NCBI GenBank assembly: GCA_028753945.1
Contig: JAPNXP010000006.1
Location: forward strand, 1,302,001 to 1,366,000
Reading direction: 5' to 3'
From: Hexactinellida sp. DTS-2022
Taxonomy: Eukaryota > Porifera > Hexactinellida
DNA length: 64,000 nucleotides
Below the pieces are notes generated by a model. It searched no databases. It saw only the letters and a program-made list of their open reading frames with translations, and was not told the origin of the DNA. The translations under genes and the position numbers were made by a program. This document shows positions 1 to 41,700 of this stretch, one piece after another; position 1 is the first letter of the stretch, and each line of letters begins with the position of its first letter.

Positions 1-1646
1 GTTTCAGTAAAACTGTTAAATCTATTTCCATTGTTTCAACTTGTAATAAATATATTGATTAAACTTGTTAAATCTTACACTATTGTTTAAACTTGCGATA
101 ATCATATTGATTCCACTTGTGAAATCGAGTTGGCTTCTATTTAATAATTGAAAAACTAAGATTTTACATTCCATAACAACAACAGATTATGTGATTATAT
201 TTACTTCTGCGTGAATATTCTGCACAATGGATACACTGACATAATTAATCGCTCTGTCTTCAACTTATAGAGACTGTTCCAATTAGATTATTGGGGTTAT
301 CGAGTGTGCGGAATAGAAATTTGATAGCCAAATTAATTAATTTATTATTTATGGCAAAATAATTTAAATTAATTATTGTAAGTTGACATTGAAATTGGTG
401 TTATATTAAAATAATATTAATAAATATTTATACTAATTAATTAAATATCATAAATCTCAGAGATCATAGAAGATAGAAACAAACTTTCAATATATCAATT
501 GGCCCTTATGGCACGTGCCACCTATACAAGTGGATCTTGACACCTTGAGGTGATGATGACATCGTCAAAAAAATGTGTTTTTACAATTTTGTGAATTATA
601 TATATCGAATGGGTTGGTTGGTGTTGGGTGATCACCCAACACGCATCTAAAAAATGCTGACTCATCACTTATTATATTCTACTGAAACTTGAATATCTTT
701 GAAATGAAGTGAGCTAAAACGAAACTTCCAACTCATTAAGAGTCGTTGCCTTTTGAAACACCTTTCTGAAATAATTTAACACCTTCATAGTGATGATGAC
801 ATGGCGGAAAAAATCCAAAATTGCATCTGTACCGACAGCATGTTCCTTTGGAGGCACTATCAATAAAACAACCACCAAAATATAGTGCCACCAAAGGAAC
901 ATGCATCGGCACAGCTGCAATTTTGGATTTTTTTTATTTTTTCTCCGTAGCAGGTGCCCTGGCCACACCTGTATACATTGAGGGCTGAAATTTGGCATGT
1001 AGTTGCGGAGTGACCGTCTAATTTGCACCTGGGGTTACGATTTTTTATCAAATGATTTCAACACCTATTTAAACTAATTATGGCTCATAACATGAAATAA
1101 TTAATATTGAGCTTGATAAAATTTACATGTACGGATAGAGAAGTAAATTCTACACCTTTTGGCAATTCACAAATGTTCCAATTTAGCCTAGGTTTGTGCC
1201 ATAATTGGGGTGCCAATCTCCTGTGTTTCCTCACACTTCAGATTCAATAAAACTGTTAAATCTAATTCTATTGTTTCAACTTATAATAATTATATTGATT
1301 TAACTTGTTAAATCTATCACTATTGTTTCAACTTGGGATAAATATATTGATCTAACTTATAAATTCCAGCTGGCTTCTATTTAATTCTAGTATTACTATA
1401 CAATGGATTAAATAAAATAATTTAATATAAGGAATTTGTTGACTTAACTCATTCACCGTGGATAACATTGCTAAAATAAATAACTAATAATATAATTAAT
1501 TATCAATACATAATGAATGAATGGCAGTAAACTCAAGATGGTTTATGATAGAAACAAACATCAAATTTATCTACCGTTCAATTTGACTCGGACTAATTAA
1601 CAAATGGTTCTTGACACCTTGAGGCGTTGATGACTTGGCGAAAAAA
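1..1646. repeat. Overlapping copies of a dispersed repeat (left block)
   Basis: Bases 1-935 are one copy of a dispersed repeat whose start lies outside the window. The stretch around 60-330 matches 15370-15580, and 460-935 matches 15935-16395, including an 18-base hairpin-like core containing GGGTGATCACCC. Bases about 1030-1400 hold part of a second copy. No gene is visible; short reading frames here are translations of repeat. Confidence 0.75.
811..932. repeat. Palindromic MITE, copy 1
   Basis: A roughly 120-base element whose two arms are nearly reverse complements. It opens with AATCCAAAATTGCA and closes with TGCAATTTTGGATT, and both arms carry CATGTTCCTTTGG or its complement. The same element recurs at 1647, 16266, 27883, 51153 and 51703, with a half copy near 6447. 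Confidence 0.85.
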
Positions 1647-1768
1647 AAATCCAAAATTGCAGCCTGTGCCGACAGCATGTTCCTTTGGAGGCACTATCAA
1701 TAAACCACCAACAAGATATAGTGCCACCAAAGGAACATGCGACGGCACAGCTGCAATTTTGGATTTTA
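1647..1768. repeat. Palindromic MITE, copy 2
   Basis: Same element as at 811-932, with arms pairing over about 50 bases around a short CAATAAACCACC loop. It directly abuts a copy of the second dispersed repeat that starts TGTGCCGACTATAC. Confidence 0.85.
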
Positions 1769-1770
1769 CT

Positions 1771-2281
1771 GTGCCGACTATACTATAGTATAGTGGCCCA
1801 GTTCTAATCTTACTGCCTTGGTTATTAATATTATTGGTCCGTATCGTCTCCACAGAACAGAGTTATAATTTCTAAGAACTAAAATTTTCAGGATATGTGT
1901 CTCATGGGTTACAGATGTGCACCTGGGGTCACGATTTTGTATTACATTTTTTTGGACACATTTTTTCACCTGTTTAATATTGAAACAGGAACAATAAATA
2001 GTACCCGAAAATTAAATTTATATGCATTCGATAGAGAATTAAATTCTACACCTTTTCACAGTGCACGAATTTTCAAATTGTACTTAGTTTGTGCCACAAT
2101 TGAGTTGCAAGTTTCCTTTGTTTACTAACACTTCAGTTCAATTGAAAGTGTTAAATCTAATTCTCTTGTTTTAACTCGTTATTATTATATTGATTCAACT
2201 GGTGAGATCGAGTAGGCTTCTATTTTCCAATTGAAAACTAAGATTCTACATTCCATAACAACGACAGATTATGTGATTATA
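1771..2281. repeat. Dispersed repeat family B, copy 1
   Basis: Begins TGTGCCGACTATACTATAG and contains CTCATGGGTTACAGATGTGC and a CAGAACAGAGTT block. Related copies lie at 14957-15560, 32838-33655 and 50792-50960. This copy stops at 2280, where a TA is followed by CAGGTAAACCTCCC, the likely terminus of an inserted pogo/Tigger-type element. Confidence 0.8.
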
Positions 2282-2419
2282 CAGGTAAACCTCCCAAAGC
2301 GGCACCAATCGGGAGAATGATTTTGTGCCGCTTCTCGGAGGTTGCCGCTACTCGGAGGTTGCTCGTATACACCCTTAATATATTATTCAAAAGCTTAATA
2401 GCATATATTGATACTAATA

Positions 2420-2518
2420 CAGTAGTAATCGGTTATAAGAACATCGGTTACATGAATCTAAATTGGTTATAAAGACGTTTTTCTCTACTTCCGATGCTCT
2501 TATAACCGATTACTACTG
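2420..2518. repeat. Tc1/pogo-type MITE (ATCGGTTATAAG family)
   Basis: About 99 bases with inverted ends CAGTAGTAATCGGTTATAAG and its complement. It resembles MITEs at 34679, 38361, 54649 and 63720, whose ends read CCGGTTATAAG. Confidence 0.7.
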
Positions 2519-2523
2519 GGGGC

Positions 2524-4919
2524 CTAATTAATACTAAAAAAATCACTAAGGGATGATTGGCTCAATCCCTTGAGCTTGTAGTCCACGCATGATTCTATTG
2601 TGGCAGCAATCCCCGATGCCTCTGCTCCATGGCCACGCACTTCCAAGAACTTTTGAACATTTTCCAGGGCCACTATCACCTCTTTATAAGTATTCAACAC
2701 TAGTGGAGCATCCTCTACAATTTCTACATCTTCAATGTGGTCACTTTCCGGATCTGTGATCTCACCTTCTTGGGCAGGTTGACCGATATCTTTCAAAAAA
2801 TTGTCTTCCCAATTACAATCTAGATTTGTACACACTGACCCATCGCAATGTATATATTCATTTACGTTACAACCTTCATGAACGGTCTTGTCAATAAGAG
2901 TCTGTAGTCCTATTAGATATTGATCTGATTCTAAAAATGGGTCATCGCTGTCATCATTTCGTAGAGTCCACGATTAATAACATCCATGGAACCACTCAGA
3001 ATACCAGCATTTCTGAAACATTTAGAAATAGTTTCAGGATTAACCATGTCCCAAGCATTGGGACATGGTTAATCCTGAAAAGGCAATCCCATTGGATTGC
3101 CTTAAGTATATTCACTGATTTAGAAACATCAGATGCTGTGTCGCATTCATCAATCTTAGCAAGAACATATCTCAGAAAAAAGCGGCGATAGTGAACTTTG
3201 AAATTTTGTATGACCCCAAGATCTAGAGGCTGAAGCTTGGATGTAGTATTTGCAGGTAGAAAGCAAATGCTAATATTCGTGAATTTTCCTAGTAGATAAT
3301 CTGGATGGCATCCTGCATTATCCATGAATAGTAAGACTGAGCGAGATTCGCGAATCAATCTGGAATTTATTCGCGTGAGAATAGTTTTTAGGATATCAGC
3401 AGTCATCCAAGCTTTCTTCTGATCAAAATATATAACAGGCAACATACTTTTATCCATTTTCCCGAAGCATCTTGGATTTTTCGATTTCCAAATGACTACA
3501 GGTGTTTCTTTTTCACCAGTAGCTGTGACTATAAGAGTCACTGTCAGTCTCTGTTTGCATTTTTTCCCTCCTGGACATCGTTTTCCTTTCTCTATGAATC
3601 CACGATCAGGCAAAGCCTGACAAAATAAACCAGTTTCATCTAGATTCCAGATATCTTGTTTTCTATAGCCATGCACAATCTCTGGTAACCTCTCCTTCCA
3701 AGAGTCAATCGTCGTTCCAGCTACATCACCAGATTCTCCACAGACTTTTAATTCTTTCATGTTATATCGTTTTTTCCATTTCTCCAACCATGGCCTACTT
3801 AATATACGGCTATATATGTTTCCGAGAAGGCCAAGAAAGAAGAAGGCCAGTTTCTAATTTTCATTTTAGGATAAACTATGCCTCCTATTGTTGTTATTTG
3901 GGTTGTATATGTGGTAATCAACCATTGCGAGTCGAATGGAACCACTTTTGAGAATCTCAGATTTGTGGTTAAGCTGTTTAGGCGCAATTTAATGATGACG
4001 GTAACAATTTATGGTAAAATGAATTTTTTCAAATATCATTAATTTCAGTTTCTTCCTACTTTCTAATAATTTTATAATAGGAATACTAATATAGGGATAT
4101 ATTTCATACCCCAAAGGCTACTAAATCACAAAATGGCGACATTCTAAAAAAATGAAAAATTATAAAGCAACCACATGCTAAAATACAAGTAGTATCCGAA
4201 TTAAAACTTACTATTTTCGTACATAAAACGTATATAATTGCTGGTTTATATATATTCATTATCAATATATATCCGGAAAATGTATTCGAAGTATATTAGC
4301 AAATTATTTTCATTTTCTCGCAGTTCTTTATACTCAAATTTTATATTTTTGTATATTTGTGGTGTCATCATTAAATTGCGCCTAAACAGCTTAACCACAA
4401 ATCTGAGATTCTCAAAAGTGGTTCCATTGGACTCGCAATGGTTGATTACCCCATATACAACCCGAATAATAACAATAGGAGGCATAGTTTATCCTAAAAT
4501 GAAAATTAGAAACTGGCCTTCTTCTTTCTTGGCCTTCTCGGGAACATATATAGCAGTATATTAAGTAGGCCATGCTCCAACCAGCCATTGCTCGCTTTAA
4601 AATGATGCTCCCCGAGGCGTGTAGCGATCTGCATTCCCATTTCAATCAGTTGTGGGCCCCCTGGGTAAATCTTTTTCGAGCATGCAAGAGTGTACCATTC
4701 ATATAACAACCTATTAGTTTCAGTATATTTTGATATGCGCTCAATCTTCCCACTGAACACTCGGCTTCCTGAAACATTTTTGAGATACAAAGACATGATA
4801 GAATCCTTACTCCTCAGTATTTTAGATATTTGTGTTTTTCCACATCCGAAAATCTTCCCTAAGGCTGCTATTTTAATTCCAGGATTGTTTTCATGTGTCT
4901 TGATTACATCTACTCTCAT
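2524..4919 (-). pseudogene. Tigger/pogo (DDE_1, CENP-B-like) transposase, broken
   Basis: Reading the minus strand from 4919, the first part (to about 4584) is the CENP-B-type helix-turn-helix region, with KIAALGKIFGCGKTQISKIL followed by the second HTH. The catalytic part runs from 3787 to about 3080 and shows the DDE_1 signatures WNLDETGLF (first Asp), [11 protein letters not shown] (second Asp) and [12 protein letters not shown] (third Asp). The acidic tail ends at 2524 with QSSLSDFF, typical of Tigger proteins. The frame is broken twice: a foldback element splits HTH from catalytic core, and a local inverted duplication near 3040-3110 replaces the segment after the third Asp. It is therefore dead as it stands. 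The family moves Tigger elements by cut and paste at TA sites. Confidence 0.92.
3789..4574. mobile_element. Foldback element inserted in the Tigger transposase
   Basis: About 786 bases with long inverted arms: 3789-3966 is nearly the reverse complement of 4370-4574. The ends read CATGGCCTACTTAATAT. The 9-base direct repeat CTCCAACCA flanks it at 3782-3790 and 4575-4583; the last two bases may belong to the terminal repeat, giving a 7-base duplication. It has no coding capacity. The interior (about 3967-4369) is AT-rich and unrecognised. Confidence 0.88.
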
Positions 4920-5650
4920 TTGTAACGTTAATTAATGTTTGTGAAGACTTCAAATGTTTAATTAAATTAATTAAAGATTAATTATTACAAATAGAAATTA
5001 GGAATACGTGCTAGTATTTACGTTACTATTTTGAATAATAGAATTGACATCATCATCAAATTGTAAAATATTTCAACTTCCAAGTGTTTTAATTGCACTT
5101 GTATGAAACACATATTCACTTACAAACCAATCAATAACAGTCATTATCTTTAGTAGGCTTATGTAATATGTTCTATTGTATTCAGTATACTATAGTATAG
5201 AGTAATTACAATATGGAGAAGATGGCTGATTTATGTAAATAATCGATAATAAAACGTAGAATTGATTAGCGACCTAATAATTTTAATTGATATATAGAAA
5301 GAACATCCTTAGGAGAATACAACCTCTATATTTTCAATAACTAATTCGAATTATTAAAGAGTCACTGGACCAGAATACAAATTTCGATATAACTGACGAA
5401 CAAAAGCGAAATTGAGAAATCAGGCTTCGAGGTGATCATCTCCAGGAAATTCTATATCTCCTGTCCAAATTTGAAATCTCTATCACCAATGGTTTAGTCA
5501 GGCCATCGCGGACGGCCGGCCGGCCGGAAGTCCGACAGAGGTAAATTCAAGTGTGCACTTATAGTATAAAACTATAGTAGGACCCTACTATAACGTTTTT
5601 TACTAGAAGAAGCACACTAAAAAGGGTTGTATTTTGTTGAGTTCGCTTGG
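4920..5650. other. Intergenic, no gene seen
   Basis: AT-rich DNA without a convincing reading frame. A short GC palindrome, GGCCGGCCGGCC, sits near 5513-5527, and an ACTATAGT-containing stretch near 5560. Nothing else recognised. Confidence 0.6.
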
Positions 5651-5679
5651 GTGTTTAGGATGTATTTATTATAGTTACA

Positions 5680-6198
5680 GAGGATCCAGTAGCCAGACTA
5701 ACATTACCAGAACTTCTCAACCCTCCCTGCACTGACTCGGCTAACTCAGAATTGTCATGCGATGCGAATAATATAGCGTTTGTACCGCAATACACCATGG
5801 ATGCTGATCTGCAATATTGTTGTTCTGTTTGCTCAAAGAAGTTTGCTCGCAAGCAGCATTTGCGTCAGCACTTGAGTGTGCATAGCGGATACAAGCCGTA
5901 TCACTGTAGTTTCTGTGTTCGTAAATTCCTGTATCCTTCTCTCCTGAGAGAACATCTGAAATTACACATTGAACCTCCTTTCCAGTGCACACATTGTACG
6001 CAGAAATTCATTCATAAAAAGATGTTTGATAAACACGTGCGAACACATCTTCCTGGGAAACCATTTTAGTGTAAGGAATGTGGTAAGTATTCTAGAAGTC
6101 GTGCGATGTTAAAAATGCACTCGGATAAAATGCATGTTTCAACAAAGTTGTTGACAAGTGAGACAAATCTGCAAATGAGTGTGCCTTCACAGTTATAA
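5680..6198 (+). pseudogene. C2H2 zinc-finger protein fragment with in-frame stop
   Basis: The frame opens behind a possible splice acceptor (ends TTACAG at about 5679) and encodes three C2H2 fingers: YCCSVCSKKFARKQHLRQH, YHCSFCVRKFLYPSLLREH and FQCTHCTQKFIHKKMFDKH. The linkers are of TGEKPY type. A TAG stop at 6067-6069 sits exactly where finger four would begin. The same frame then continues with CKECGKYSRSRAMLKMH and runs on to a TAA at 6196. Read in full it has four fingers and would be a DNA-binding regulator. With the stop it is a pseudogene, an allele or a truncated protein. No upstream exons were found, and no specific orthologue is recognised. Confidence 0.75.
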
Positions 6199-6990
6199 CA
6201 ACAAAAGATTGAACCTTTTATACAAGATTTCAGTGTATATGAATATAAGTATCCCATTGAACTGTTGTATGTTAGTAGTAATTGTTTATCATTAATGTCT
6301 AATTGTTTAAGATCAACCATTTTCAACACTGGAAAGGTCATTACTCATTAGTAGTATTAACATCAAAACCACCTTTGTGAATCTGGTTTTTATATTAAAA
6401 AGTGCTTGTTATGAAAAAATTTATTTTCAGATAAGAATAGTAAGAAAAAATTCAAAATTGGAAGCTGTGCCGAGATCATTTCCCTTTGGATTTCTTGATA
6501 ATAAGATTTAAGTTTATTTCTATTCCCCTATATCTTTAATACAATCCGGACAATCAAGCACACAAACACACAACAATCGTTTTCATTATATTATAATATA
6601 CAAAATTCATTTTTCAATGCACCATACCGTCCAAGTTCAACAATACGTTCTCGTTCATTTTCCAGGGTCCGGAGTATATTGACATTATTCTATATCTAAA
6701 CTATTTATAAAATGTTTTTTCTTCTAAATAATAGACGCGTTACAAATATGAATTTACTCGAACATAATATTTTACTCTATTTCTATAAATCAGTTTTGTT
6801 CAAACTATTTGAACAACTTACTAGATACTGTGAACCTCTCCCTTGATTAATTACTTTATTAATCAAAGGATTTTAAATAATATAATAATTCATAAATACA
6901 GCTAGGATCAGGTTAATGATCGAAATCATACCATTTTATAATTTATACAATGTTTATTATATTTATTTATATTTTCCCTAGAATAGCCTG
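6199..6990. other. Upstream region of the RdRP fusion gene
   Basis: No gene seen. A degenerate half of the palindromic MITE lies at about 6447-6490. The DNA just before 6991 is very AT-rich and ends TTTTCCCTAG at 6972-6981, a good 3-prime splice site. The gene may therefore have an upstream noncoding or short coding exon that cannot be identified here. Confidence 0.5.
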
Positions 6991-9900
6991 ATGAATTGTG
7001 GTGGCTGTAATATAGAACTATTAAGATTGGATGACGTCTGTTTCTTCTTGCTTAATACTTCTAAAACTGTGCATTTTATAGTTAAGACTGAGAGGCAAAT
7101 TTTCGCACAGACTAATCTGAAAAGCAATTGGGAATCCAAGAAGATTACAATCGTGAACTGTATTCACTGCGACTTTGTAGTTGGTAAGAAACTGCCTATA
7201 GGCCCTAATAAAGCTGATGTCATCGCTTTCGGTTGTGAGAAAGTTCGGGTATTTAGTTTGGTTAGGACTAGACTTGACAAGTGGGGATTTTTGTATAATC
7301 ATTCGCCGTACAACTCGATTGAACAGAGAACATTGGATGATTTCTTTGGTCGAAACTATTGCTTGTCTCCAAGACAGAATTATATCCCTATACTACAAAC
7401 TAGTATAAAAATTAATTTCGCAGATATAAGTAATATGTCACATTTCGCGGTTAATGACATTCTAATGTCAAGTGTAACACCTAGAGATTATCAGCTCTCT
7501 TGTTACATAGAGGCTCTACAGCGAGACTTAGTTATTGTACTGCCAACTGGATCTGGTAAGACCTTAATAGCGTCATTAGTCGCAGCTAGAATGAATAAAT
7601 TGAATCCCAGTCTCATGACACTGTTCGTTGTAGAGCGTGTTCCGCTCGTCTACCAACAGGGAGAGGCCATCAGTCTAGACACTCATCTTAACGTGTGTCG
7701 TCTCTGTAGCGAGAATAAAACTAGCTTAAAGATTAGACATTTGCGTGAGGGTCAGTTTAATGTGCTTGTATCAACAGCTGGTGCTGTGCTTAACCTGTTT
7801 GACAGTAATGAGTTAGGCATTGAGGCTTTCTGCTTAGTCATACTGGACGAGTGTCATCACACGATTGGACATCATAACTATGTTAAAATCCTTGATATAA
7901 TCAAGTCAGGCGTTTCTCATAATAAACCGAGGATAGTAGGACTGACCGCTTCGCCTCTCTCAGCTAAAAGCGATCTACGTTCTACCACTAAACTCCTGAG
8001 AGAGTTTAGGCAGCTGTTTCTCAATGCCCCTATCTGTCATAACATTCAACTCGATGGGTATACATTTGCGAATCAAAAAATTGAAATAGTTACAGTAACC
8101 AATGGAGATAGTGCTTTTCAGAATTACATACAAATGATACTCGATGGCATGTACATTGTAGCTGATACCATCAATTCTTTACGTGATGAAATTATTATTA
8201 AAAAGGAACAATGGGACGATCCGTATTGTATGATACGTTTAAAGAAATCCTGTGCCATTATAAGACGGGTTTCAAATGAGGTTTTGAGTGCGCAAGTTAA
8301 GCTAATGAGATGCTATATTGCTGCTCTGGAGATAGCAGATTTGGTTGGAGCTACGTATACGAATGAAATTCTCAAAGATACACCATTAGCTTGTAATGTG
8401 CAGTGCGGTTTAATGCAATCACCGCGTCTTATCGCGCTTTTAAATATCCTCATGCATTATCCTGATACTTCTAAAATTATTATATTTGTGCATACAAGAC
8501 AGGCTGGTGAAGTCTTATCTAGAATTCTACAGGAAAATAACGAAATTTCAGATCGATTCTCTCCGTTGAAAATATTCGGCCACGGGGGAGTGCTTGGCAT
8601 GGGCTGGGACAGCGAGCAGGAGCTGGTAATACAAAGGTTCCGTAGCGGTGGCTGCAGCCTGTTGGTTAGCACTTCTGTGTTGGAGGAAGGCTTGGATGTA
8701 CCCGCTTGCGACGTCGTTATTCGGTTCGACGGAATTAGATCTCTAATTTCATTCGCGCAGAGCAAGGGCCGCGCGCGTAAGCTAGAAAACAGTAAATTTG
8801 TACTAATCCTATCTGATAGGCAGAAACGTACATACGATGATATTAAACATCGCGAAATAATACTGAAACAGGCTTTGAACGAAATGGATTCGTTTTCCTC
8901 TGACATATGCCCTTCTAGAACCACACTTATGCTGCAGAACAATGTAAGTGTGTCCAGAGAACATATAATACAAGAATATTTCATTCAGGTTTCAGAGTCT
9001 GCGATTGAGTTTTACATAAGCGGCACACATAACCTTAACAGTTTGCTAGAACAACTTGATAGGATCCTGAACACCGAGAGTTACCTCACTATTAAGCGTA
9101 TTGACGTGGCTAAAGCAAATGCTATATGGAAACGTAAGGGGATATTCCCTGCAGAAGACACGTTAATTATATGCGGCGTACGCTCACGTGACGTCATACA
9201 GTCCTACCGTATCTTGACTACCAAATGGAATTTCTGCATCAACATTATAGATTCAATGCTCTTCGTATGGACGAAATTTCTTATGAATACGAAACAACAA
9301 TTCACTACCTGGCCTGTTGAGAAAATGCAATGGGGATCTTTCATTGATAAATCAACTGTAGCTTTAGCTGAAGAGTACAATGATAATGAAGCCACTATGA
9401 GAATTGTCCATAAACATTCTATTATAATATCTTTGCCTCTTACAGACATTGAAATCGAGATTAGTTTCACTACAATTCATCTGTTTATTCTCGCTTCCTG
9501 GCAAGAAGAACAAGTAACACTATTTATACCATTAACAAGCTGCCCTGTAGCTCGTATTGTACAATATAATGACGATGGATTTATGACAACAACAAGATTG
9601 ACAAGTGATACTTATTGGATTTTAAATTTATTCGCAAAATATCCAGTTCTATCCGTTACACTTCCCTATAAGGCTTCTAATTGGCAACCATTATGGACAA
9701 CTCTCCATAGCTCTGTGATCTTTCCTGTTCCACTTTTCGATTCAAGTATACACATTGTAGACATAGATTCCTCACAAACAACTCAAATGAGCATCACATC
9801 TCCATCTCAGCATTTCTTTGTTAAGCAGCTGGAAGATTGCTTATGGCTGTTGTCTGTATTGAAATGTACACGTACAGTCCGCTTAACACATGATACAGTT

Positions 9901-12900
9901 AATTACATTTACAGGCAAATAACGCAATCTAGTTCTGTTCATGAGGTGAGAGCTATAACAGCAACACTCGCGAAATTCTTAACATTCATCTCATCACCTG
10001 TCACACACTATTTTATTGATATATTAGAATATTTTATTAGAGAATTCAAAATTATTTTGGATTTACAATACCCGTTAATCGAACCACCAAATAACTACCG
10101 TAATATTCAGTATGCCGTTGTAACACCTTCATGTGTGATCTGTCAATTACCAGTCACAATACAATGCAGTAGATTGTATAGGAATTATCCACACACGCGC
10201 TTTCTAATAGTCGCATTTAGAGACGAACAAACTCAACACATCCACAATAAAGAAGTTATTGAACGAATGAGGAAACTGTTGAATATAGGAATTGAGATAA
10301 ATGGTAATCAGTACTATTTTCTATTATCAACCCCGAGTCAATTGAGAGAACGTAGATGTATATTTATATGTGTACCTAACACAATATCTCCTGTTAGTAA
10401 ACTCAATGAGATCCGCGCACAAATATTAGGTCCCACTATAATCTGTGATGAAATAACATATTTTTCTCGCCTTGGATTATTCTCCACTTCGGATATGCCA
10501 GTATGTACCATGGATCAGAGCTCTGTGGGACAGATTAATGATATACGAACCAGCAATGGGATACTATTGACAGACGGAAATGGGAAGATGAATAATGAGT
10601 TAAGCCGTGAAGTATTTTCAAAACTCGGTTATGATCCACACACGAATACACCTTCCGCAGTTCAAATCCGATTTGCCGGTTTTAAAGGTGTACTAACAGT
10701 TGCTAATACAAACGATCCTGACTTTTCTAACGCACTACCTCAGTATAAGATTCTAATCCGTCCGTCAATGAAGAAGATGGAATGGACAGATTCTAGTTTG
10801 AATATAGTGAGTGTACCTCAATACGAACAGTTCTACCTAAACGCATCATTCATTAATCTAATTACAAGTCTGAGTGACCCTCTGAATGAATGGAATCCTA
10901 CAGCAATGCTCAGAGAGCTGCATACTAAAGCGTTAGTGGACTATGGACAAATACTAACTAATATGGAATTAGCTAGTCAAGCAATGAAACAATATCTCTT
11001 CTCCTATATGGATTCTACAATTGAATATTTTGATATTCGTACTGAGCCATATTTCTTATCTCTATTACGTTGCGTATACAATTTTAATGTTAAGAATTTG
11101 ATATCGAAAGCTCGCATTCCTCTGGAGAATGGCGGTCTATTTATGGGCATACCAGACCCCATCGGAGCCCTAGGTGAAGGGGAGATATTCGTACAATACG
11201 AGAGAGATGGGAGAGTTATGAGTATAGTAGAAGGACCCGTTTTATTATACAAACATCCGTGTCTCCATCCCGGAGACCTACTCGCTCCAATGGCTGTTAA
11301 CATAGCAACACTATCTCACCTTAGGAATGTAGTTGTGTTTCCAACTCGTGGTAGAATCTGTCTACCCGCTTCTACGAGTGGTGGGGATTTGGATGGGGAT
11401 TTGTACGCAGTTATCTGGGAATCTAGTCTTATTCCCCCTCAATACTCAATGTACCCAGCTCTCAACTATGGGGAAATAGCAGAGAAAGGTAAAGTCAAGC
11501 AAATAGCTATAGATAAAATCCCATTGTTAGATGATAGTGCGAATATACAACATAGATTATCAGAAGCCTACTGCCGTGTAATTGCTAATGATTCTATCGG
11601 TAAGATAAGCAATCTCCATCTAGCCTTGTGTGATCAGTTGCATGATGGTGCGTGTCACACTCTAGCTATTTCTGTTGCAGAATCTCAGTCGGTAGCAGTA
11701 GACTTTCCTAAGACAGGCGTGGCACCTGTGGTAGCACAGGAAGCTTTGGATTTGGTCAGAGACAAAGGATTCCCAGACTTTATGGAGAAAGAAGGAGTGC
11801 CTTCATACCCTTCCTGTAAGCTATTGGGGGAAATGTATAGGAATGCAAAGTATGTTTGTTATGAAACGAATGAGCTTAGACGTCTTCTGTATGATTCTAA
11901 TGTAAATGTTTTTCACGGACATTCACGAGACATTACAACACATTATCTCTATGTAGCAGGTTGCGAGTTGTACTTGATAGAAGCAGAGAGGTTGTATAGG
12001 GAATATTCAAATGCTATGCAACAAATTATGACGTCATTTGGGATAGAGACTGAAGCTGAGACTGTACTTGGTTTGATATTAAAATGCCATCCATTATTGT
12101 CAGCTGATAAGAAAAAAACAACTAGATCTCTTAACGCGGTTGTACAAGCAGTATTCGCACAATTTCGCGATTTATTCTTTCGAGATGTGTCAGAAGATAA
12201 TTCAACTGAATGCTCGAAAAAGGCATTTGCCTGGTACTATACTGCATACCATCGTGACGACACAACACTATTCTATTCATTTCCTTGGATTATTGGTGAA
12301 TATTTATGTGCTATTTCCCCAAAATTGAAAGATAGAGAGTTTGAATTCCACTCTCTCCTCGGCTCAAGTGTCAGGAAATATATCTATAATAATAAGGAAT
12401 TTATTCTTACAACAGTTGAGTCTAAATTATCCACTTTTCCCATTGTAGAATCTTCTATTGAGAATTATGTAAGCAAAGTTCTTAAATCTCTCGGTCAATC
12501 TATATTCAGTATTTCCTGTTTCGGATCTGTATCACTGTTTCTATGCGAATCTCAATCAGATTTAGATATCTCTATTATTCCTACATCAATAGGTTATGGC
12601 TATATTTTCCCATTACAAAGAGACAGACTCGAATTTAACCAATCTCCATTACAGCAGCAGCGAAAGCATTTGTTAACGAGCTTAGTATTCCCTGCTATAG
12701 ATGGGATCTCACATAGCAAGCTAGACAAATGCACAGCCCAAGTACCAGTTATCTCAATTACAGTAGATTCCCCTATAGATCCAGATAACCAAGTTTCTAT
12801 TGATATCACCATAGACAGTGATGGTGTACAGAAATCTGAGTATATTAAACAGTTGTATTGTAGCACCGGTGGAGTATTCTACGGTTGGCTTTGGATATTA

Positions 12901-14763
12901 GTGCACTGGGCTAGACATGTGGGTATTTTAAAATGTCAGACATCAGTTGAGAATACTGGGATTATTCTCACAGCCGAGTTTCAAGCTTTTGTTTTGTATG
13001 TTTACAATCAAATGTCGAACAAACCGAAAGTTAATCCAATCCCCGATAACTATTTGTCTTGTAGTTTCCTTCTCGACCTGCTAATGAGCACAAGCATTGA
13101 TTTAGTGTTGGGCGCTATGCTGGAAGAATTCTTCTGGCTTGGTATGAAGTTAACTTCTAATCAAGATTGCATTGTGTATGAATGGCCGATTATTGGTAAG
13201 CCGACACACACTATTAATGGCTCTGAACTGAAGAAGATATCTTTTCTTTTATTCCAAGCATGGCATTGTTTAGTCTACACGCATGAAGTAGCAAGCATAT
13301 TCGAGCGAAATGACATTCCTTTGAGACTGAATAAACGTTTTTCCCATAAGGTAAGTAAGCGTATCCGTCCTACTTGTCAATTCCATCAGCAGCGTCTGTC
13401 AGCCCTGACAGGTGCCACTGTCAGTATTGAGGATTCAGGTCGTAATCTGTTGGTATCATCTCACGGGTCTGCTAGCTCAATACATAAACTATCTGTTGAG
13501 CTGTCGAAACTGGAGAAAATAACCTCACTCACTAAAAAATACGCTTTCAACGCGCATAGGTATATTCTAGAAGAAGGATACATTTTAATATTAGAGAATC
13601 AATCGTATAATATACGTGTAAAATTATCTCCATTCATGAATGCGTGTTTCAAGCTCTACCATACTCACAAAGAACGTAGTCATGTCAGTTATGCCAGCGA
13701 GTTCGTAGATACGAATTGGAAGCAACAAGCTATTCCTCGAATAGAAATGTTAGCTCTAATTCAATTGACAAAGTTCCCAATTGATAATAAGAAGTTGTTA
13801 GGTGAACTCTATTTTAAGACTAGATTTGGGTTTTTCTATGCATTGGATTCAGGAGATACTTTTAATAAATTTGGTGGTTCTATTTCATTGCAGGAATTCG
13901 AGCGTTTTTTGGGAAAATCATTACGCTATCGTAAAAAGATAATTCGTGAGTTCACTATTAATCCTTCGAAGGAGAAAGAATCTCATAGAATTCCATTAGT
14001 GCCTTTTGGTAGCCCAGCAGGTCATTCTTTGCAGGAACTTGAAACGATAGAGAAAACTCCTTATCCAAGTTGCTCATTCTGTCCAGGCATTAAGGAAATT
14101 AAAGAATTGTCAGATTCCCAATTATCTCTCTCTATTTATACTTCCGCCTTACAACACTGTGGTTTCATTCTTTACCAACAGCTTCGCCCTTACACGTGGA
14201 TGATGGATGTGAAAGTTTCCCAAAATTTTGACCTCACAATCAAATTAGATGAAACTATGAATATAGTTAGTATCAAAGAGCGTCAATTGCTATGGATGAT
14301 AGCAACCATAATCGCAGATAGGAACGCAGTCCAGAGTCCAGACACTGTGTATGACACTAGATTGCGTATAGATACAAGTGAGAATGTTGATCCTGACTCT
14401 CAGTTATACAAACATATATTCCCTACACAAGTTGTATTTCCATTACTATCTGTAGGCAAGAATGGGGCCCCAGAGGCTTGCGATGAGTTAAAGCACAGAG
14501 TTAAACTTGTGCGCCACATAACTGAGTTTGTATTCTACAAACGGGATTTTGTTACTGCTACTATTCTAATAGGAACTGAGTACAGTGGAAAGTGTTTAAA
14601 GAATGGTAGGAAATTCTGTGAACTGACATTAATACACAATGAGAATGAATTAAGACAAGCTGTAGCAGCTGGCAATAGAGATAATGATATTTTGAAAATA
14701 GTAGAAAATGCAGTTAATGTATCGCTTGAGGTATCTGATGCCCTCTCTAAGTTCTCAATATAA
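6991..14763 (+). CDS. Helicase / RNA-dependent RNA polymerase / nucleotidyltransferase fusion protein
   Basis: A single 2590-codon frame without introns. Residues 1-130 hold two CxxC pairs (C3/C6, C57/C60), a likely zinc site. Residues about 165-620 are an SF2 helicase of the Dicer/RIG-I class: PTGSGKT (185-191), DECHH (286-290), GLTASP (317-322), STSVLEEGLDVP (560-571) and QSKGRAR (590-596). Residues about 1120-1600 are a cellular RdRP of the QDE-1/EGO-1/RDR class: LLTDGNGKM (1192-1200), QIRFAGFKG, IRPSMKKM, HPCLHPGD and the catalytic loop GGDLDGDLY, with D1466, D1468 and D1470. Residues about 1800-2060 are a Cid1-type nucleotidyltransferase: GS (1845-1846), SDLDIS (D1857, D1859), third Asp D1938, then the palm-associated HWARHVGIL helix. 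Residues about 2060-2590 are unassigned. All catalytic residues are present, so it should be an active dsRNA-making silencing enzyme. Helicase-RdRP fusion is known from Dictyostelium RrpA/RrpB; the added nucleotidyltransferase is what stands out. ATG 6991 is the first Met after an in-frame TAG. Confidence 0.95.
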   Translation: MNCGGCNIELLRLDDVCFFLLNTSKTVHFIVKTERQIFAQTNLKSNWESKKITIVNCIHCDFVVGKKLPIGPNKADVIAFGCEKVRVFSLVRTRLDKWGFLYNHSPYNSIEQRTLDDFFGRNYCLSPRQNYIPILQTSIKINFADISNMSHFAVNDILMSSVTPRDYQLSCYIEALQRDLVIVLPTGSGKTLIASLVAARMNKLNPSLMTLFVVERVPLVYQQGEAISLDTHLNVCRLCSENKTSLKIRHLREGQFNVLVSTAGAVLNLFDSNELGIEAFCLVILDECHHTIGHHNYVKILDIIKSGVSHNKPRIVGLTASPLSAKSDLRSTTKLLREFRQLFLNAPICHNIQLDGYTFANQKIEIVTVTNGDSAFQNYIQMILDGMYIVADTINSLRDEIIIKKEQWDDPYCMIRLKKSCAIIRRVSNEVLSAQVKLMRCYIAALEIADLVGATYTNEILKDTPLACNVQCGLMQSPRLIALLNILMHYPDTSKIIIFVHTRQAGEVLSRILQENNEISDRFSPLKIFGHGGVLGMGWDSEQELVIQRFRSGGCSLLVSTSVLEEGLDVPACDVVIRFDGIRSLISFAQSKGRARKLENSKFVLILSDRQKRTYDDIKHREIILKQALNEMDSFSSDICPSRTTLMLQNNVSVSREHIIQEYFIQVSESAIEFYISGTHNLNSLLEQLDRILNTESYLTIKRIDVAKANAIWKRKGIFPAEDTLIICGVRSRDVIQSYRILTTKWNFCINIIDSMLFVWTKFLMNTKQQFTTWPVEKMQWGSFIDKSTVALAEEYNDNEATMRIVHKHSIIISLPLTDIEIEISFTTIHLFILASWQEEQVTLFIPLTSCPVARIVQYNDDGFMTTTRLTSDTYWILNLFAKYPVLSVTLPYKASNWQPLWTTLHSSVIFPVPLFDSSIHIVDIDSSQTTQMSITSPSQHFFVKQLEDCLWLLSVLKCTRTVRLTHDTVNYIYRQITQSSSVHEVRAITATLAKFLTFISSPVTHYFIDILEYFIREFKIILDLQYPLIEPPNNYRNIQYAVVTPSCVICQLPVTIQCSRLYRNYPHTRFLIVAFRDEQTQHIHNKEVIERMRKLLNIGIEINGNQYYFLLSTPSQLRERRCIFICVPNTISPVSKLNEIRAQILGPTIICDEITYFSRLGLFSTSDMPVCTMDQSSVGQINDIRTSNGILLTDGNGKMNNELSREVFSKLGYDPHTNTPSAVQIRFAGFKGVLTVANTNDPDFSNALPQYKILIRPSMKKMEWTDSSLNIVSVPQYEQFYLNASFINLITSLSDPLNEWNPTAMLRELHTKALVDYGQILTNMELASQAMKQYLFSYMDSTIEYFDIRTEPYFLSLLRCVYNFNVKNLISKARIPLENGGLFMGIPDPIGALGEGEIFVQYERDGRVMSIVEGPVLLYKHPCLHPGDLLAPMAVNIATLSHLRNVVVFPTRGRICLPASTSGGDLDGDLYAVIWESSLIPPQYSMYPALNYGEIAEKGKVKQIAIDKIPLLDDSANIQHRLSEAYCRVIANDSIGKISNLHLALCDQLHDGACHTLAISVAESQSVAVDFPKTGVAPVVAQEALDLVRDKGFPDFMEKEGVPSYPSCKLLGEMYRNAKYVCYETNELRRLLYDSNVNVFHGHSRDITTHYLYVAGCELYLIEAERLYREYSNAMQQIMTSFGIETEAETVLGLILKCHPLLSADKKKTTRSLNAVVQAVFAQFRDLFFRDVSEDNSTECSKKAFAWYYTAYHRDDTTLFYSFPWIIGEYLCAISPKLKDREFEFHSLLGSSVRKYIYNNKEFILTTVESKLSTFPIVESSIENYVSKVLKSLGQSIFSISCFGSVSLFLCESQSDLDISIIPTSIGYGYIFPLQRDRLEFNQSPLQQQRKHLLTSLVFPAIDGISHSKLDKCTAQVPVISITVDSPIDPDNQVSIDITIDSDGVQKSEYIKQLYCSTGGVFYGWLWILVHWARHVGILKCQTSVENTGIILTAEFQAFVLYVYNQMSNKPKVNPIPDNYLSCSFLLDLLMSTSIDLVLGAMLEEFFWLGMKLTSNQDCIVYEWPIIGKPTHTINGSELKKISFLLFQAWHCLVYTHEVASIFERNDIPLRLNKRFSHKVSKRIRPTCQFHQQRLSALTGATVSIEDSGRNLLVSSHGSASSIHKLSVELSKLEKITSLTKKYAFNAHRYILEEGYILILENQSYNIRVKLSPFMNACFKLYHTHKERSHVSYASEFVDTNWKQQAIPRIEMLALIQLTKFPIDNKKLLGELYFKTRFGFFYALDSGDTFNKFGGSISLQEFERFLGKSLRYRKKIIREFTINPSKEKESHRIPLVPFGSPAGHSLQELETIEKTPYPSCSFCPGIKEIKELSDSQLSLSIYTSALQHCGFILYQQLRPYTWMMDVKVSQNFDLTIKLDETMNIVSIKERQLLWMIATIIADRNAVQSPDTVYDTRLRIDTSENVDPDSQLYKHIFPTQVVFPLLSVGKNGAPEACDELKHRVKLVRHITEFVFYKRDFVTATILIGTEYSGKCLKNGRKFCELTLIHNENELRQAVAAGNRDNDILKIVENAVNVSLEVSDALSKFSI

Positions 14764-14897: not shown

Positions 14898-14903
14898 AAT
14901 AAA
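14898..14903 (+). terminator. Candidate polyadenylation signal of the RdRP fusion gene
   Basis: AATAAA lies 135 bases after the stop codon, before the next repeat copy begins at 14957. It is a consensus signal in a plausible place, but AT-rich DNA gives chance matches. Confidence 0.5.
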
Positions 14904-16952: not shown

Positions 16953-19900
16953 TCAAGTAAACCTTCTCCTGTAGGTAGCCTTGGCTTGTTTGTAAAGAGG
17001 TGCTGACTCACTCCCAGTTTCATTCACAAGACTCGTCAGGTACCCATCAAACTCTTGTAGCATCAACCATGGAATTCCAGACTCTATCACTTCTCCTTTG
17101 TCCATGACAATAATGGTATCAGCATCTATTATTGTATTTAGGCGATGTGCTATCATAAGAACAGTGGAAGCACTGAATTGAGTCCGGATAACTTTCTGTA
17201 TTATTTGGTCAGTGTGCATGTCGACATTCGAGGTGGCTTCATCGAGCATCAGAAGTTTGTTGTTTCTCATGAGAGCACGAGCTAAACAGTAAAGCTGCTT
17301 TTCTCCAACACTGAAATTGTTTCCACCATCAGAAACAGGGTACTGCAGTTGACCAGTTAAACTTAGTGTTTTCTTCTTCATCTGAACTTGCTCGAGAGCT
17401 TTCCACAGCTCATTATCATTGAACTCGTGGAATGGGTCCAGAGTGTCTCTGAGGGGCCCACTGAAGAGCGTAGGGTCCTGTGGTATAATTGAAATTTGAC
17501 TTCTGAGTTCATGCAGACCTAGAGTCTTTATGTCTATGCCATCAATATAAATAGACCCACTTGTTAACTCTACCAATCTGAAAAGTGCTGTCTGTAGAGA
17601 GGATTTGCCAGCACCAGTGCGACCAACTATTCCCACTTTCTCGCCTTGCTTTATTTTCATAGACACATTATCAAGCACAACTGGTAAAGTAGAGGAATAG
17701 CGAAGTGTAGCGTTCTTTAGAATAACCTCTCCTCTTTCAATGCGGAATTTATACTTTGAATTCTTTGAATAGAAAGGTTGTTCTTCAGGTAATCTTGAAT
17801 AGGTAATAATTCTCTCGGCTGAAAGCATGAAATTTTCAACTTGCGCACTTGTTCTTATTACGAACTGTGATGCCCTAGGTACGTGTAGAAGGATGGATAT
17901 CGAGAATGCTAGAACACTAGGATTAATGTGATCACTGAGTATAATATAGATTGTGTATATAAGGAATAGGTAGACAGTCATCATGAAGTATATTCTCAAT
18001 GCAAACCAACGTATCAGCGATAGTGTGGTCGTCCAGGCCCTGAAATGATCATCCTGCAGAGAGTAGAATTTATCAGTAAGCTGTGTTTCCAACTTAAGGG
18101 TATGTATACAAGGAAGTCCATGTAAGGTGGTGGATAGTTGGGTGAAGATGGGACTCTTTGCAGCAGATTCAATGGCTTTCACCTGACGAGAAAATCTTAA
18201 GTAATATTGTCGAAATGCTAGTAAAAATATGAGAAGCAGGATTGTTGGGAATATTACGATCCATTGTGAAATGATAGCTGTTATTAAAGTGTAGAAGAAA
18301 CTCAGAAATAAGCTGATAAATTGAATCATGAAGGGGGGAACTATATCGTCTAATGTTCCAATATCTTTTGAGAAACGATTGATGATGGACCCACTCTGGT
18401 TCATATCGAAGAATCGCATTGGAACTCTCAAAATCTTCCATAGCATTGTATCGTGTAATTTCCTTGATGCGTTGAGGAGTAAGGAATACAGTAATGTATA
18501 ACTTACAAAATATATTACTAGTGTGCCGGTACACAATGCTATGTAGTACATACTCCTTTCACCCGTGGTGGTTGAAGCGAGGGGATTGAATTTCAAAGTA
18601 GTGTTAAATTGTGCGGTCTTATTTTGGCTCAAATTTGTCCATAATACTAAATAATAGTAGACCCCAATCTCCGAGAGGAATTGAGAGAATACGATTAATA
18701 ACAATAACAACACACCAAATACGTTGGCACCTTTCCAGAAGTAGATGAGATAAGTTTTTAAGCTTACACCACCCTTTTCAACTTTTTCTGCAATCATGTC
18801 ACACTCCACATCTTTGCTGCACACGATTGTATTTGGAAACACGTTTTCATTATCTGCAATTGGAGTCGTTGGTTGTGACGCGCATGTTTCATAATTAAAT
18901 TCACTCCCAATTGAATAAATACTGCTCTTTCTGCTCGCGGACCTATTTGAAAAACCATTAGTTTCCCAATACTTTTGGCAAACCTGTTCCACGCAGGATG
19001 GATCAATATCATCGAGTTTTCCAATGCACATTTGGTTTCCTTCATCTAGCACCAACACTTGTGTAGAGTTCTGAATTAATTGAAGCTGATGAGTGGCCAT
19101 GATCACAACTTTATCTCGAAGTAAACCTCGAATACACTTACAATACAATTTCCCAGCTACGATAGGGTCAACAGCACTGAAAGGATCATCAAGGAGATAA
19201 ATATCTCTGTTTGCATATACAGCTCTAGCCAGACTCACTCTAGCAATTTGTCCACCACTCAGAGTCGCGCCTCGTTCTCCCACTACTGTTAAATCTCCTT
19301 CCAAAAATGCCTTCATGTCCTCATCCAGGCAGCAAGCGCCGACCACTTTATCAAACCAGTCCAACTCAAACTTTGATCCGAACACAATGTTCTCACGAAT
19401 CGTACCAGAAAATACCCACGGCTCTTGGAGAGTTATTGCCATACTCCCGTAAATATTGCTGGTTCCGTTAACTAAAGTGTTCTCTCTCGCCAAACCCATT
19501 AAAAGTGATGTCTTTCCGGATCCAATATTCCCAACGATTGAAAGGATTTCTCCCTGCTTCACCGTGAAACTGATATTCCTACACGCCACTTGAGGTCCTT
19601 GTTTGTCATTATCCCAACCGCAGGAAAAATTATCTACACAGACAAATTTTGTCTCTGTTACTTCTGCTATCTCCTCGCTATGCTGTTGTTTACATTGATG
19701 TAACTCTTGGGTGGAGCCTTCCAGTATGGATTGAACACGATGTACTGACGGGTATATTTCTGAGAGATTGATGAGTGCTAAGGAAAATGTTAAGTATAGC
19801 TTTGAAAAATTTCTCAATAATGCAATTACCGTGAATACTTTCGCAGGAGTGAATTCCCCGCCCAATATAGCATAGATCGTTAAACAGACCATTGAACCCA

Positions 19901-20842
19901 AAACTGGAAATGTGAATGCGAGAATGTAGTTCAGGACTTTCAACGGTGAAGATACTAAGAGGAGAAATGTTTCCCGACCTCGTATTTTTTTTACCTTGTT
20001 CTTTACTGCATATTCCCATGCGTATGTTTTTATCAATCGCATCCCTTCGATCACTTCTTTCATTAATCTATTTCTACTGTCTGTTAGTTTGAAAATTTTG
20101 AATTTAATCTTTGAATTCATCAAACTAAAGCACAGACCTATAGGAACTTGTACTAATGCTACAATTCCAGCTGCCAATGCTGCAATCTCGATCTCTCTCC
20201 ACAGTAAATAGACAAACAGTAACAGACCGTATGGGTAAATCCATAACATATTCAAGTAGATGATGCCAATATCCAGTTTATACAGTCCCGAACTGATTGG
20301 TGTGATTATTTTTCCAAAGGATAACTGGTATGACTGATTCAGATTGATTGATAGTACCTTTTTGTAGATGGCAGTTGTCAACATTGTACGGAATTTGATT
20401 CCCAGCAAAGACATTCTCCATTTAACACTCTGAAATATAACATTATCACACAATGCTAGCCCTATTATGGCACATGCAATCCCGAACAGAACGAGTTTGT
20501 ATCTTTCTGAACATGCACTCCTACACTGGAATAATTCCACGAATGTTCCTATTAATAACGGTGTACAGAGATTAATGTTAATTCCAATGAATTCAAGAAT
20601 CGCAAAAAGGATTATTTCCTTATAGAAAGTCTAACAAATGTAAACCATAACTTTGGACAACTCCGCTTGCATTCCTTTTCCCAGACCCGTTGGAAATTTA
20701 TGGACAAATTTTCAGCAGAATCATTCGAATCGGGTTTGGGTAGGTCGTTCAGTGTTATTGATTTCTTAAAAATCGATTTTATAACAGTAATATCCAACCA
20801 ACCAAACACAGGTGCAGTCAAGTTGTGCAAAATTATATTCAT
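16953..20842 (-). pseudogene. ABCC4-type (MRP) ABC transporter, intronless, one frameshift
   Basis: Starts at ATG 20842, two codons after an in-frame TAA. The first 76 residues match the MRP N-terminus (APVFGWLD, then VWEKECKR), then a TAA at 20612-20614 ends the frame. The protein continues one base back in the other frame from about 20625 to 16953 for roughly 1,220 residues. Total coding length is 3890 bases, one short of a multiple of three, so one lost base explains the break. The architecture is complete: TMD1; NBD1 with Walker A GNIGSGKT (about 19500-19535) and LSGGQ (about 19250); TMD2; NBD2 with GRTGAGKS (about 17610), FSVGEKQ, LLMLDEATS and the MIAHRLN switch. Family members export organic anions and cyclic nucleotides across the plasma membrane. 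The rest of the frame is fully conserved, so a sequencing error or recent allele is as likely as a true pseudogene. Confidence 0.9.
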
Positions 20843-38700: not shown

Positions 38701-41700
38701 TCTCAATGGGAAATGCAGGTGTTTACATGGCGTGTTTCTATTGGCCAGAAGTTTGCATAGCAGTTCGCACTGAGTAGACTTACCAGCTCTGTCCAGTCCC
38801 TCTATTACTATTAGCAGGCCTCTCTGCTTGGGGTCTGTTTGCTCTGGCGCTAAAGCAGCCATCTATGCACACAAAGTACAATAAAACCAATTAACCTGAT
38901 GTACACGTATTCATTAATCATGATTAATGTATAGGAATGTTAGGTCAGTGACCTCATCTAATTTATTATCGCTTGTTCTAAAGTAATGTTATTCTAATAG
39001 CAGATGTCCAAAGCTGTTGGTTTGTATTGAGAATACTTACATTGACTCAGGTCCCTTATTATATGAACATTTAGGAAATAAAGCGTGTTATATCTAAGAG
39101 CTGGCTTTCAAAACTTGTCTCGAAAAATTACCAATCATTAATACATGTATGATTACAGTAATAGAATCGGTGTAAATATGCTGCCCTTATGTTGGACATC
39201 CCTGTATTAGTTTACGGGCATTGTGGAATTACGATCAATTGCAATTGTATAATGAGTGTTGGTATTGTAGTTGTTTCATAGCATCACAATTACAGCAAAA
39301 CTAGTAATAATTATTACACAATAGTAGATTAGTCTATTAGTGGCATGGAGTTATGGTTGTGTTGTATATCGTAACAATCCTAGGAGCAATTGATTATCAA
39401 TTTTGGGATAAGTATGCATCGGTTGTACCACCGTCGGCGTCCTAATTAATATTATTCGATTAAAGGACGAGCTGTTCAAACCAATGTGTCCCATTATCGG
39501 AGTCCACTAAATTGCAAGTTAGACATGCGCACTATAGACTCAGTTTGAGAGTACAGTATGGTTTGGCTTCTAATTGTTTTATTGCATATTTCAAGCTAAT
39601 TATGACTGCTGATACCTTCTAATCTGGTCATGAATGAAGTGGCGATGTCCTGATTGTATCCAGTAGACTGGTGTACCTGGGTATTTATAGACTGCCTCTT
39701 ATTGGCCTCTGTGTTAAAGAGACAAATGATTGCTTTGTAAATAACTTGTTAACTGAATAACAGACTTTTGATGCGTCACAATTCTAACCTCAATGTTTAT
39801 ATCAGACTCGCTTACTATGACTTAAATTGAATGTGTTTAACCTATACTTCTTTTCAAAAATGCACTGCACTGTTCCCATAGAAATGCGTCTCATTATATA
39901 ACACTAATTTTGGTCCCTCAAGGTTCAAAATAAGCAAACCTGCCTCGATTAAATTGAAATGTTAATCTGTGGTATTTAGAATTACTATTATGGATAAGGC
40001 CATATAAATAAATAACTTGTTTATCATCCCCGTCCGTCCCAATTTTTACCCCCCGTCCGGATATAATTTATTATTATCTGATAAAAATATTTGTTCAATA
40101 TATTAGCTATAAACTACTCTAATGTATCAATTTTTAATAAGTCTTGTATTTAGAAAATTATTTAATTATTTAAGGATTGTCATGTGATTTTATAATAAAA
40201 TAAAATATTAATATTCATTGTTTTGCATAGGATAATGTTATTTGCATATTAATAGTAATAAAAAATAAAAATAAAATCCCGTCCGCCGTCCGTATTTTCT
40301 GAAAAAATCAAGGATTGTACAAGTTCCCTTTACCGAATACAATTGTACTGTATTTCCCCGAATAAGCGCCGCATCAATACAAATTTGTATGAAAATTGTT
40401 ATCATTAGTTTATAACTGAAGTGTAATTACATTAATTTAGGAAATTTCGATATGTTTAAAACCGTTGGAATCCACCTAAATATTATTTTCTGGACTTTTC
40501 AAAAAAATTGAGTCCATTATTTGTCACGAAACAGATAAGCTCCGGGGCGCTTATTCTGGAAATACGGTACGTAAATCACACCAGTTATTACGAAGAAATT
40601 CTGATTATTAAATCTAACTATTAATGGTTTGCATTTCTGACAGAGAGTACCAGTGCTGGTTACAGCCTGGCCGTCCTGTAGTGGAGCAAGTCTCGGGTAC
40701 AAACCTCGATATTATCATACTACACTTCGGAGCAACGTGAGTTTTCTTAATATACTAATGTTAGTAGCTATTCTCTGATAAGAGCACTATACTATTATAT
40801 TGTATTTGCAGATTGTTCTATGAGAGTTTCAAACAGCTGCATGACTGTGTGGCGAAGAGTTTATACTACAGTCAATGTCAACAACTCATATGCAAGGTAT
40901 CATATGCATATGCTGTAAACAATTCAGTCAACTTCAGTCTTATTGCCTTGAATACGTTTTCTTGGATAAATTATTTTAATTTTAATTCTCAACTCGCTGT
41001 ATTCTGTATAATCAGGTCGGTATGGTAACTATGGTTAATTTGCATCCGAGAATTAGTGAGGTGAGCGAAAATAATTATTTTTGACTACATGGTGTTCGCG
41101 TAATATCAAGTCGCATTTTGCAAGAAAATTTGCGAGACATTTGCGAAATTTTAGAGGAACAAAATTAGCATTAAATGCCCCATGGAGGACTGAAATTAGA
41201 ACGATAACTAATTTAATACAACAATGAATACGTGACAAGTTTAAATGGAAACAAACTTTGATACATTCAGATTATAATTATTACTATTTCCTTTCTTGTA
41301 TAACTTCTGGATAGAGAATGTCCATATAAATATCAGTCTCTTCTTTGTAGTAGCACTTGTCGAGATAGAAATTCCTATTGTACCCCTGTGTCTCTAGGGT
41401 GACTATATAGCAGCCCGTGCATTGACCTATGCATGTCAGAATTCTAACCATTAAGGCGCCAAATCCTCTCCCTCTGTACTTCTCTTCCACAATCAACATT
41501 TCAATTCTCCCGCGGGGATTCGCTCTGTAGAACTTGGGGTCCAATATCAGAGCCCCCGCTGCAACTAGCTTGCCGCTCCCTACATCCTCTATAACCACAA
41601 TGTAGTACTTGCCGTGTGTTGCTCTCAGGTTGCGGAACTGTTCCTTGAACTTGTTGCTGTCTAGGTTCCCGATGGGGTTGAGTTCTGAGAGGAGGTCCCC

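Follow-up and report, generated by a model that had tools for sequence, protein, structure and literature searches.

In the RNA silencing of yeast, ciliates and nematodes, an RNA-dependent RNA polymerase (RdRP), a helicase and a nucleotidyltransferase meet as separate proteins. In fission yeast (Rdp1-Hrr1-Cid12) and Tetrahymena (Rdr1-Rdn) the three are found in one complex, and in C. elegans the RdRPs EGO-1/RRF-1 cooperate with the RIG-I-type helicase DRH-3 and with the nucleotidyltransferase CDE-1 or MUT-2. In Dictyostelium, an N-terminal Dicer-like helicase is fused to a cellular RdRP; to our knowledge, these fusions have neither a nucleotidyltransferase nor a part resembling the kinetoplastid proteins RESC1/2. 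The window analysed here, a stretch of 64,000 nucleotides from a glass sponge genome, encodes a protein that has the helicase and cellular RdRP in common with the Dictyostelium fusions and carries the nucleotidyltransferase and a RESC-like part in addition. The three enzyme classes that occur as separate proteins in the yeast, ciliate and nematode systems are thus united in one chain.

This protein is encoded at positions 6991-14763 (+) by a single frame of 2590 residues, which runs from ATG to stop without an internal stop, exactly where the sequence-only reading had placed it. That reading had also recognized three enzymes in the frame, and the catalytic residues that we checked are all in place, but it had overlooked the domains at either end, a RIG-I/LGP2-type zinc domain (RD) and a RESC-like barrel. 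Judged by sequence or by predicted fold, the chain has five modules in the order RD, helicase, RdRP, nucleotidyltransferase and C-terminal domain (RD-HEL-RdRP-NT-CT), and it aligns over its full length with 53 other proteins (54-row alignment). Excerpts of the genome paper on the glass sponge Aphrocallistes describe single-exon genes as numerous (PMC10282587), so that an intronless frame of 7.8 kb is not odd in a glass sponge and a retrocopy origin need not be invoked. An AATAAA motif at 14898-14903 (+), approximately 135 bases 3' of the stop, is a possible poly(A) signal, although it is short and may be due to chance.

The superfamily 2 (SF2) helicase occupies residues 155-640 (7453-8910, +). 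Pfam helicase parts matched residues 163-322 and 482-595, and the nearest PDB sequences were of the Dicer/RIG-I class, the best being the reconstructed AncD1D2 (2.9e-42). The motifs GKT (189-191), DECH (286-289) and QSKGRARK (590-597) are present, and the motif residues that we checked are intact in 48/54 aligned rows; the coral proteins P0042, P0044, P0045 and P0046 deviate at the second arginine of motif VI. These motifs, together with the grouping of the module with helicases of Dicer and the RIG-I-like receptors (RLRs), mark it as an SF2 helicase of the Dicer/RIG-I/archaeal type. A Dicer would have tandem RNase III domains; neither Ribonuclease_3 nor PAZ was among the seven Pfam families that matched the fusion protein (P0001) at E <= 1, and in this respect it is no Dicer.

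A helicase tree was built from 80 chosen rows, with five archaeal ones as the root. One clade of 39 rows (SH-aLRT 99) consisted of 37 fusion helicases plus two RD-helicase records, and it was joined by the Dicer rows in the next clade (SH-aLRT 99). Nine nematode rows, to which we assigned DRH or RNA helicase labels, paired with one mollusc receptor row (96) and, unlike the window helicase, fell outside the fusion and Dicer clade. By this phylogeny, the sister group of the fusion helicase is formed by Dicer helicases rather than by the sampled nematode helicases or RLRs. The proposal that the protein is a one-chain analogue of RdRP-helicase-nucleotidyltransferase assemblies stands, whereas its equation with nematode EGO-1/DRH-3 does not: with a Dicer-sister helicase, it is not simply the nematode set in one chain. 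For the helicase, the grouping of the nine nematode rows with the mollusc receptor likewise rules out that EGO-1 and DRH-3 represent a split of the fusion.

Residues 641-1043 (8911-10119, +) are a conserved stretch, either a linker or an RdRP N-terminal region, which aligned across the 54-row set and had no Pfam matches; this stretch and residues 2114-2192 lie outside the five assigned modules. The cellular RdRP follows at residues 1044-1780 (10120-12330, +). Pfam family PF05183 matched residues 1044-1618 with an E of 1.5e-114, covering positions 1-581 of 582, and the nearest solved structures by sequence were 7w84 (1.1e-55) and RDR2 (2.7e-48). The full domain and the DxDGD catalytic loop, here DLDGD within GGDLDGD (residues 1464-1470; 11380-11400, +), identify a cellular RdRP, and the loop is present in 54/54 aligned rows. 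The RdRP core is common to plant RDR1/2/6 and to ascomycete and basidiomycete RdRPs, but the other four modules scored in none of these.

The nucleotidyltransferase (residues 1781-2113; 12331-13329, +) gave a weak Pfam match at 1824-1952 (E 0.0038, under the cut-off). Its predicted fold and its GS...DxD...D triad are of the Cid1/TUTase type, with GS at 1845-1846 and DLD at 1857-1859 (motif stretch 1843-1861; 12517-12573, +), and with the third catalytic Asp, D1938, located by alignment and motif check in VSIDITI (12793-12813, +). The fold lies as close to the uridylyl transferases Cid1, TUT4 and TUT7 as to poly(A) polymerases. The complete set of GS, DxD and D1938 was found in 44/54 aligned rows. 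Seven of the ten incomplete rows (P0047, P0049, P0054, P0057, P0059, P0060 and P0066) belong to the rotifer-side group of the trees described below, in which tailing consequently looks dispensable; the other three are P0038, P0046 and P0052, the last of which was aligned but is absent from the trees.

The N-terminal domain (residues 1-120; 6991-7350, +) is predicted to adopt the RD/CTD fold, and alignment and motif checks identified its zinc ligands as the pairs C3xxC6 (6997-7008, +) and C57xxC60 (7159-7170, +), all four cysteines being complete in 46/54 aligned rows. An RD fold with four zinc cysteines is a mark of the RLRs, the fold here being that of a predicted model only. Foldseek ranked RLR rows first, followed by Mss4, Mis18, MsrB and cereblon chains, all at E >= 0.001, and the N-terminal sequence profile gave near-equal matches to the Dicer-related-helicase domain (E 0.014), Yippee (E 0.017) and Mis18 (E 0.033). 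RD hits at i-E < 0.01 within 327 sequences numbered 20, and the other 96 of 116 fell short of this threshold. The RIG-I_C-RD profile gave no signal anywhere when run on the sponge's own genome, so that its silence there is uninformative. An RD fold and a related helicase in one chain are also found in RIG-I, MDA5, LGP2 and DRH-1. The layout differs, however, in that RLRs carry the RD C-terminally, after the helicase (residues 889-1009 in DRH-1), and have no polymerase, whereas in the window protein the RD is N-terminal and an RdRP follows the helicase.

For the C-terminal domain (residues 2193-2590; 13567-14760, +), Pfam and PDB sequence searches gave significant matches in 0/12 members, and a profile of the 12 C-terminal sequences reached a best E of only 0.72 against PDB chains, which leaves the fold search as the sole lead on its identity. 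The predicted fold is the barrel of RESC1/2, and the best 50 matches listed for an 810-residue model were solely RESC and nucleotidyltransferase/poly(A) polymerase chains; other barrels may follow beyond these 50. The chain letter and residue range suggest that the best match, 8cdp_A, is RESC1. If so, the match is to the partner without triphosphate binding, since excerpts of the paper on this pair place the RNA 5'-triphosphate in the RESC2 tunnel; in the same excerpts, the authors state that RESC1/2 have no sequence homologues outside kinetoplastids (PMC10201420). Trypanosome RESC1-RESC2 is a mitochondrial heterodimer of guide-RNA binders, and no sequence match to PDB chains was found for the barrel of the fusion protein. 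A review of editing complexes does not mention RdRP. On the strength of the modelled fold, the domain is a candidate relative of RESC1/2 outside kinetoplastids.

The nearest proteins were 29 records (P0002-P0030), which share 42-82% identity over the RdRP region; three carry the name of a glass sponge, Oopsacas minuta. Searches with the RdRP region gave 94 matches among proteins of similar length and 106 among shorter proteins (427-1289 aa). Module HMMs were built from the alignment of 54 long proteins, and modules were called at a summed score > 20 bits and E < 1e-3 in this small set. All five parts were detected in 49/201 proteins (window included), the RdRP only in 118, and partial sets in the others. 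Because the HMMs derive from the 54-protein alignment, 46 of these 49 rows (window included) are seed members, with P0078, P0080 and P0090 outside the seed; and because the second search returned shorter proteins only, the figure of 118 is no measure of rarity. The module order never departed from RD-HEL-RdRP-NT-CT among the 201 proteins, and with 49 carriers the uniqueness of the architecture had to be dropped. The earlier interpretation is accordingly partly supported: it was right in kind but mistaken about uniqueness and about which helicases are nearest. Named five-part carriers include Oopsacas, Rhopilema, Hydra, Acropora, Montipora, Macrostomum, Prorocentrum, Phlyctochytrium and Brachionus, while Paramicrosporidium has four modules and Paratrimastix and Symbiodinium have three. 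The four checked sites (DxDGD, helicase, nucleotidyltransferase and zinc cysteines) are jointly present in 37/54 rows.

Seven of the 201 records comprise RD-HEL-RdRP only: a partial Symbiodinium record and the proteins P0061, P0062, P0064, P0070, P0074 and P0075 (1639-1657 aa), which are without tailing or RESC-like parts and whose RdRP matches 72-74% of the query region. In another genome, the records for a close relative of the fusion gene list two proteins, one with the helicase and one with the RdRP (P0096 and P0202), apparently on one contig of 275819 bases; this is either a gene-model split or a real lesion. The names given to relatives in public records include 'RNA-dependent RNA polymerase 1-like' and 'uncharacterized protein'. 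No paper describing the five-module architecture was found in the literature searched, which contained few subscription papers and no bioRxiv preprints, and within that scope the statement that no such protein had been described held good. The words helicase, sponge, Porifera and nucleotidyl are absent from the main text of an animal RdRP survey (PMC6396948), as are RdRP, Argonaute and Dicer from the main texts of the papers that describe the genomes of Oopsacas and Aphrocallistes.

Two RdRP trees were built, one of 95 rows picked from 207 with SH-aLRT only, and one of 61 rows with bootstraps, from which 34 rows were omitted, among them long branches (including the chytrid P0058), both SF1-type paralogues and redundant rows. 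In both trees the fused forms were split among three groups. One comprised glass sponges, Hydra, Rhopilema, Macrostomum and dinoflagellates, another united corals, scallops, nematodes and a mite, and the last was a rotifer/Paramicrosporidium group. The stand-alone sequences of plants, fungi, oomycetes and diatoms came together in one group, which in the 61-row tree had 12 rows (100/98). Stand-alone nematode and mite rows, together with a microsporidian in the 61-row tree, were interspersed among fused rows and are read as losses, while Paratrimastix and Phlyctochytrium took no firm position. The simplest reading of these trees is a single origin of the fusion with repeated loss, the direction of which hangs on the unplaced root. 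Dinoflagellates among otherwise animal rows, as far as these are named, could reflect transfer. It is conceivable, but on balance unlikely, that the five-module chain was an ancestral, self-contained small-RNA factory of early eukaryotes, that stand-alone RdRPs are later, reduced derivatives of it, and that RESC1/RESC2 descended from its C-terminal domain; as the root of the RdRP tree is unknown, 'ancestral to all' corresponds to one rooting only.

The window corresponds to G000:C15:1302001-1366000 of the sponge genome (112.4 Mb, 18 contigs). In this genome, ten RdRP matches resolved into seven genes with frames of 2106-2785 codons and one decayed remnant on C1, which accounts for three matches, two of them with a stop inside. 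The decayed copy (L015; G000:C1:10115500-10125499, about 3479-8662, +) consists of many short pieces in three frames. Four genes have the one-frame chain, namely the window gene, L009 (for which the stretch examined stops within the C-terminal part), L010 and L011, and a fifth (L012/L032) is interrupted near codon 335. Of 16 helicase matches in the genome, only those in the four one-frame genes were near full-length, and two half matches lay in the fifth. The interruption in L032 (G000:C4:4490000-4499999, about 783-4392) is a P-element-type transposon with an 856-aa frame (THAP and TNP-like RNase H), an 8-base target duplication and terminal inverted repeats that are exact across the tested stretch; P0009, a close relative elsewhere, is uninterrupted. 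A second RdRP fusion type was seen in L013 (G000:C18:868000-877999, 339-6656, -) and L014 (G000:C8:2294500-2304499, 4289-10000, +), with an N-terminal AAA_28 ATPase, an RdRP and a C-terminal UPF1-like SF1 helicase; the best PDB matches of L013 were UPF1 (8.3e-58) and ZNFX1 (9.9e-40). Hrr1 is a UPF1/ZNFX1-type helicase, and the second fusion thus resembles an Rdp1-Hrr1 pairing in one chain. Among 15 Piwi-domain matches in the genome, six were frames of 895-1052 aa that cover most of the domain; RNase III gave nine matches, several of them in pairs.

On this evidence, the fusion protein is probably, though far from certainly, a single-chain RNA-silencing/antiviral RNA synthesiser. The modules and their residues are observed; the steps below, and their order, we infer. 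The N-terminal domain and helicase would capture an RNA end or a duplex and feed it along at the expense of ATP. The nucleotidyltransferase would add an untemplated tail to a 3' end, most likely that of the template, which might serve as the entry point for the RdRP. Excerpts of a C. elegans paper offer a parallel, in which MUT-2/RDE-3 adds pUG tails to templates, thought to recruit the RdRP RRF-1, and the 22G products of RRF-1 bear a 5'-triphosphate (PMC11347159). The RdRP of the sponge protein would initiate without a primer, so that its product would carry a 5'-triphosphate, and this end may be retained by the C-terminal tunnel, the N-terminal domain or both. The duplex would then be handed to RNase III and Piwi-domain proteins, which this genome encodes in genes of their own.

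CDE-1 provides an example of small-RNA uridylation that limits the RNAs concerned, and it is possible, if doubtful, that the nucleotidyltransferase of the fusion uridylates new small RNAs in like manner, coupling synthesis to turnover. A fold as near Cid1, TUT4 and TUT7 as poly(A) polymerases is consistent with such product tailing, but it is uninformative on nucleotide or substrate and does not distinguish product from template. The RIG-I/LGP2-type end domain, as modelled, would also suit an antiviral sensor working without an Argonaute-guided step, in which this domain and the helicase sense viral ends and the RdRP amplifies the dsRNA signal. Excerpts of published work list Nematostella RdRP1-3 under the poly(I:C) response (PMC8476169) and report no evident RNAi function for Branchiostoma RdRPs (PMC6396948), so that an RdRP need not mean RNAi. 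However, the Piwi and RNase III genes of the same genome, and a helicase that is placed with Dicer rather than with the sampled RLRs, argue against a pure sensor, which we regard as somewhat unlikely.

Much less likely is that the C-terminal barrel acts as an RNA 5'-triphosphatase trimming RdRP products. Three metal-binding glutamates mark the Cet1-type enzymes. RESC1/2 are described, in the excerpts cited above, as similar to Cet1-type tunnel triphosphatases, and among 12 family members D2455 is invariant and R2457 and R2540 almost so; yet RESC1/2 themselves are missing two of three metal ligands (PMC10201420), and in the strand at 2273-2285, taken as motif a, [KR][FL]G occurs in 9/12 members and is preceded by an ExE pair in 0/12, the motif equivalence being guessed from strand order. 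An artefact, with adjacent genes joined by assembly error or annotation, is extremely improbable. The orthologue recorded as P0202 and P0096 on one contig might point that way, but 7.8 kb are open without a stop, four long single-frame copies exist in the genome, and the five-module order recurs in 49/201 proteins on many contigs; given these copies and the conserved order, assembly fusion was ruled out.

As a widespread natural chain, the protein would fix the stoichiometry of all three enzymes and would provide a single enzyme for testing template loading, tailing and copying. The two flanking domains have, by modelled fold, known relatives that grip RNA 5' ends, and these end modules, together with the breadth of the family, make the finding worth specialist attention. 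The chain would link a number of animal groups with dinoflagellates and fungi of the chytrid side through one old architecture, and RESC1/2 of kinetoplastid RNA editing gain candidate outside relatives.

Elsewhere in the window, a DDE_1 transposase frame, presumably of the pogo/Tigger type, lies upstream of the fusion gene (2996-3787, -), and an ABC transporter with two ATPase and two membrane stretches is encoded by a single frame of 1195 aa (16953-20540, -). Frames for a GNAT acetyltransferase (41284-41850, -) and a dual-specificity phosphatase (42953-43477, -) were also observed.
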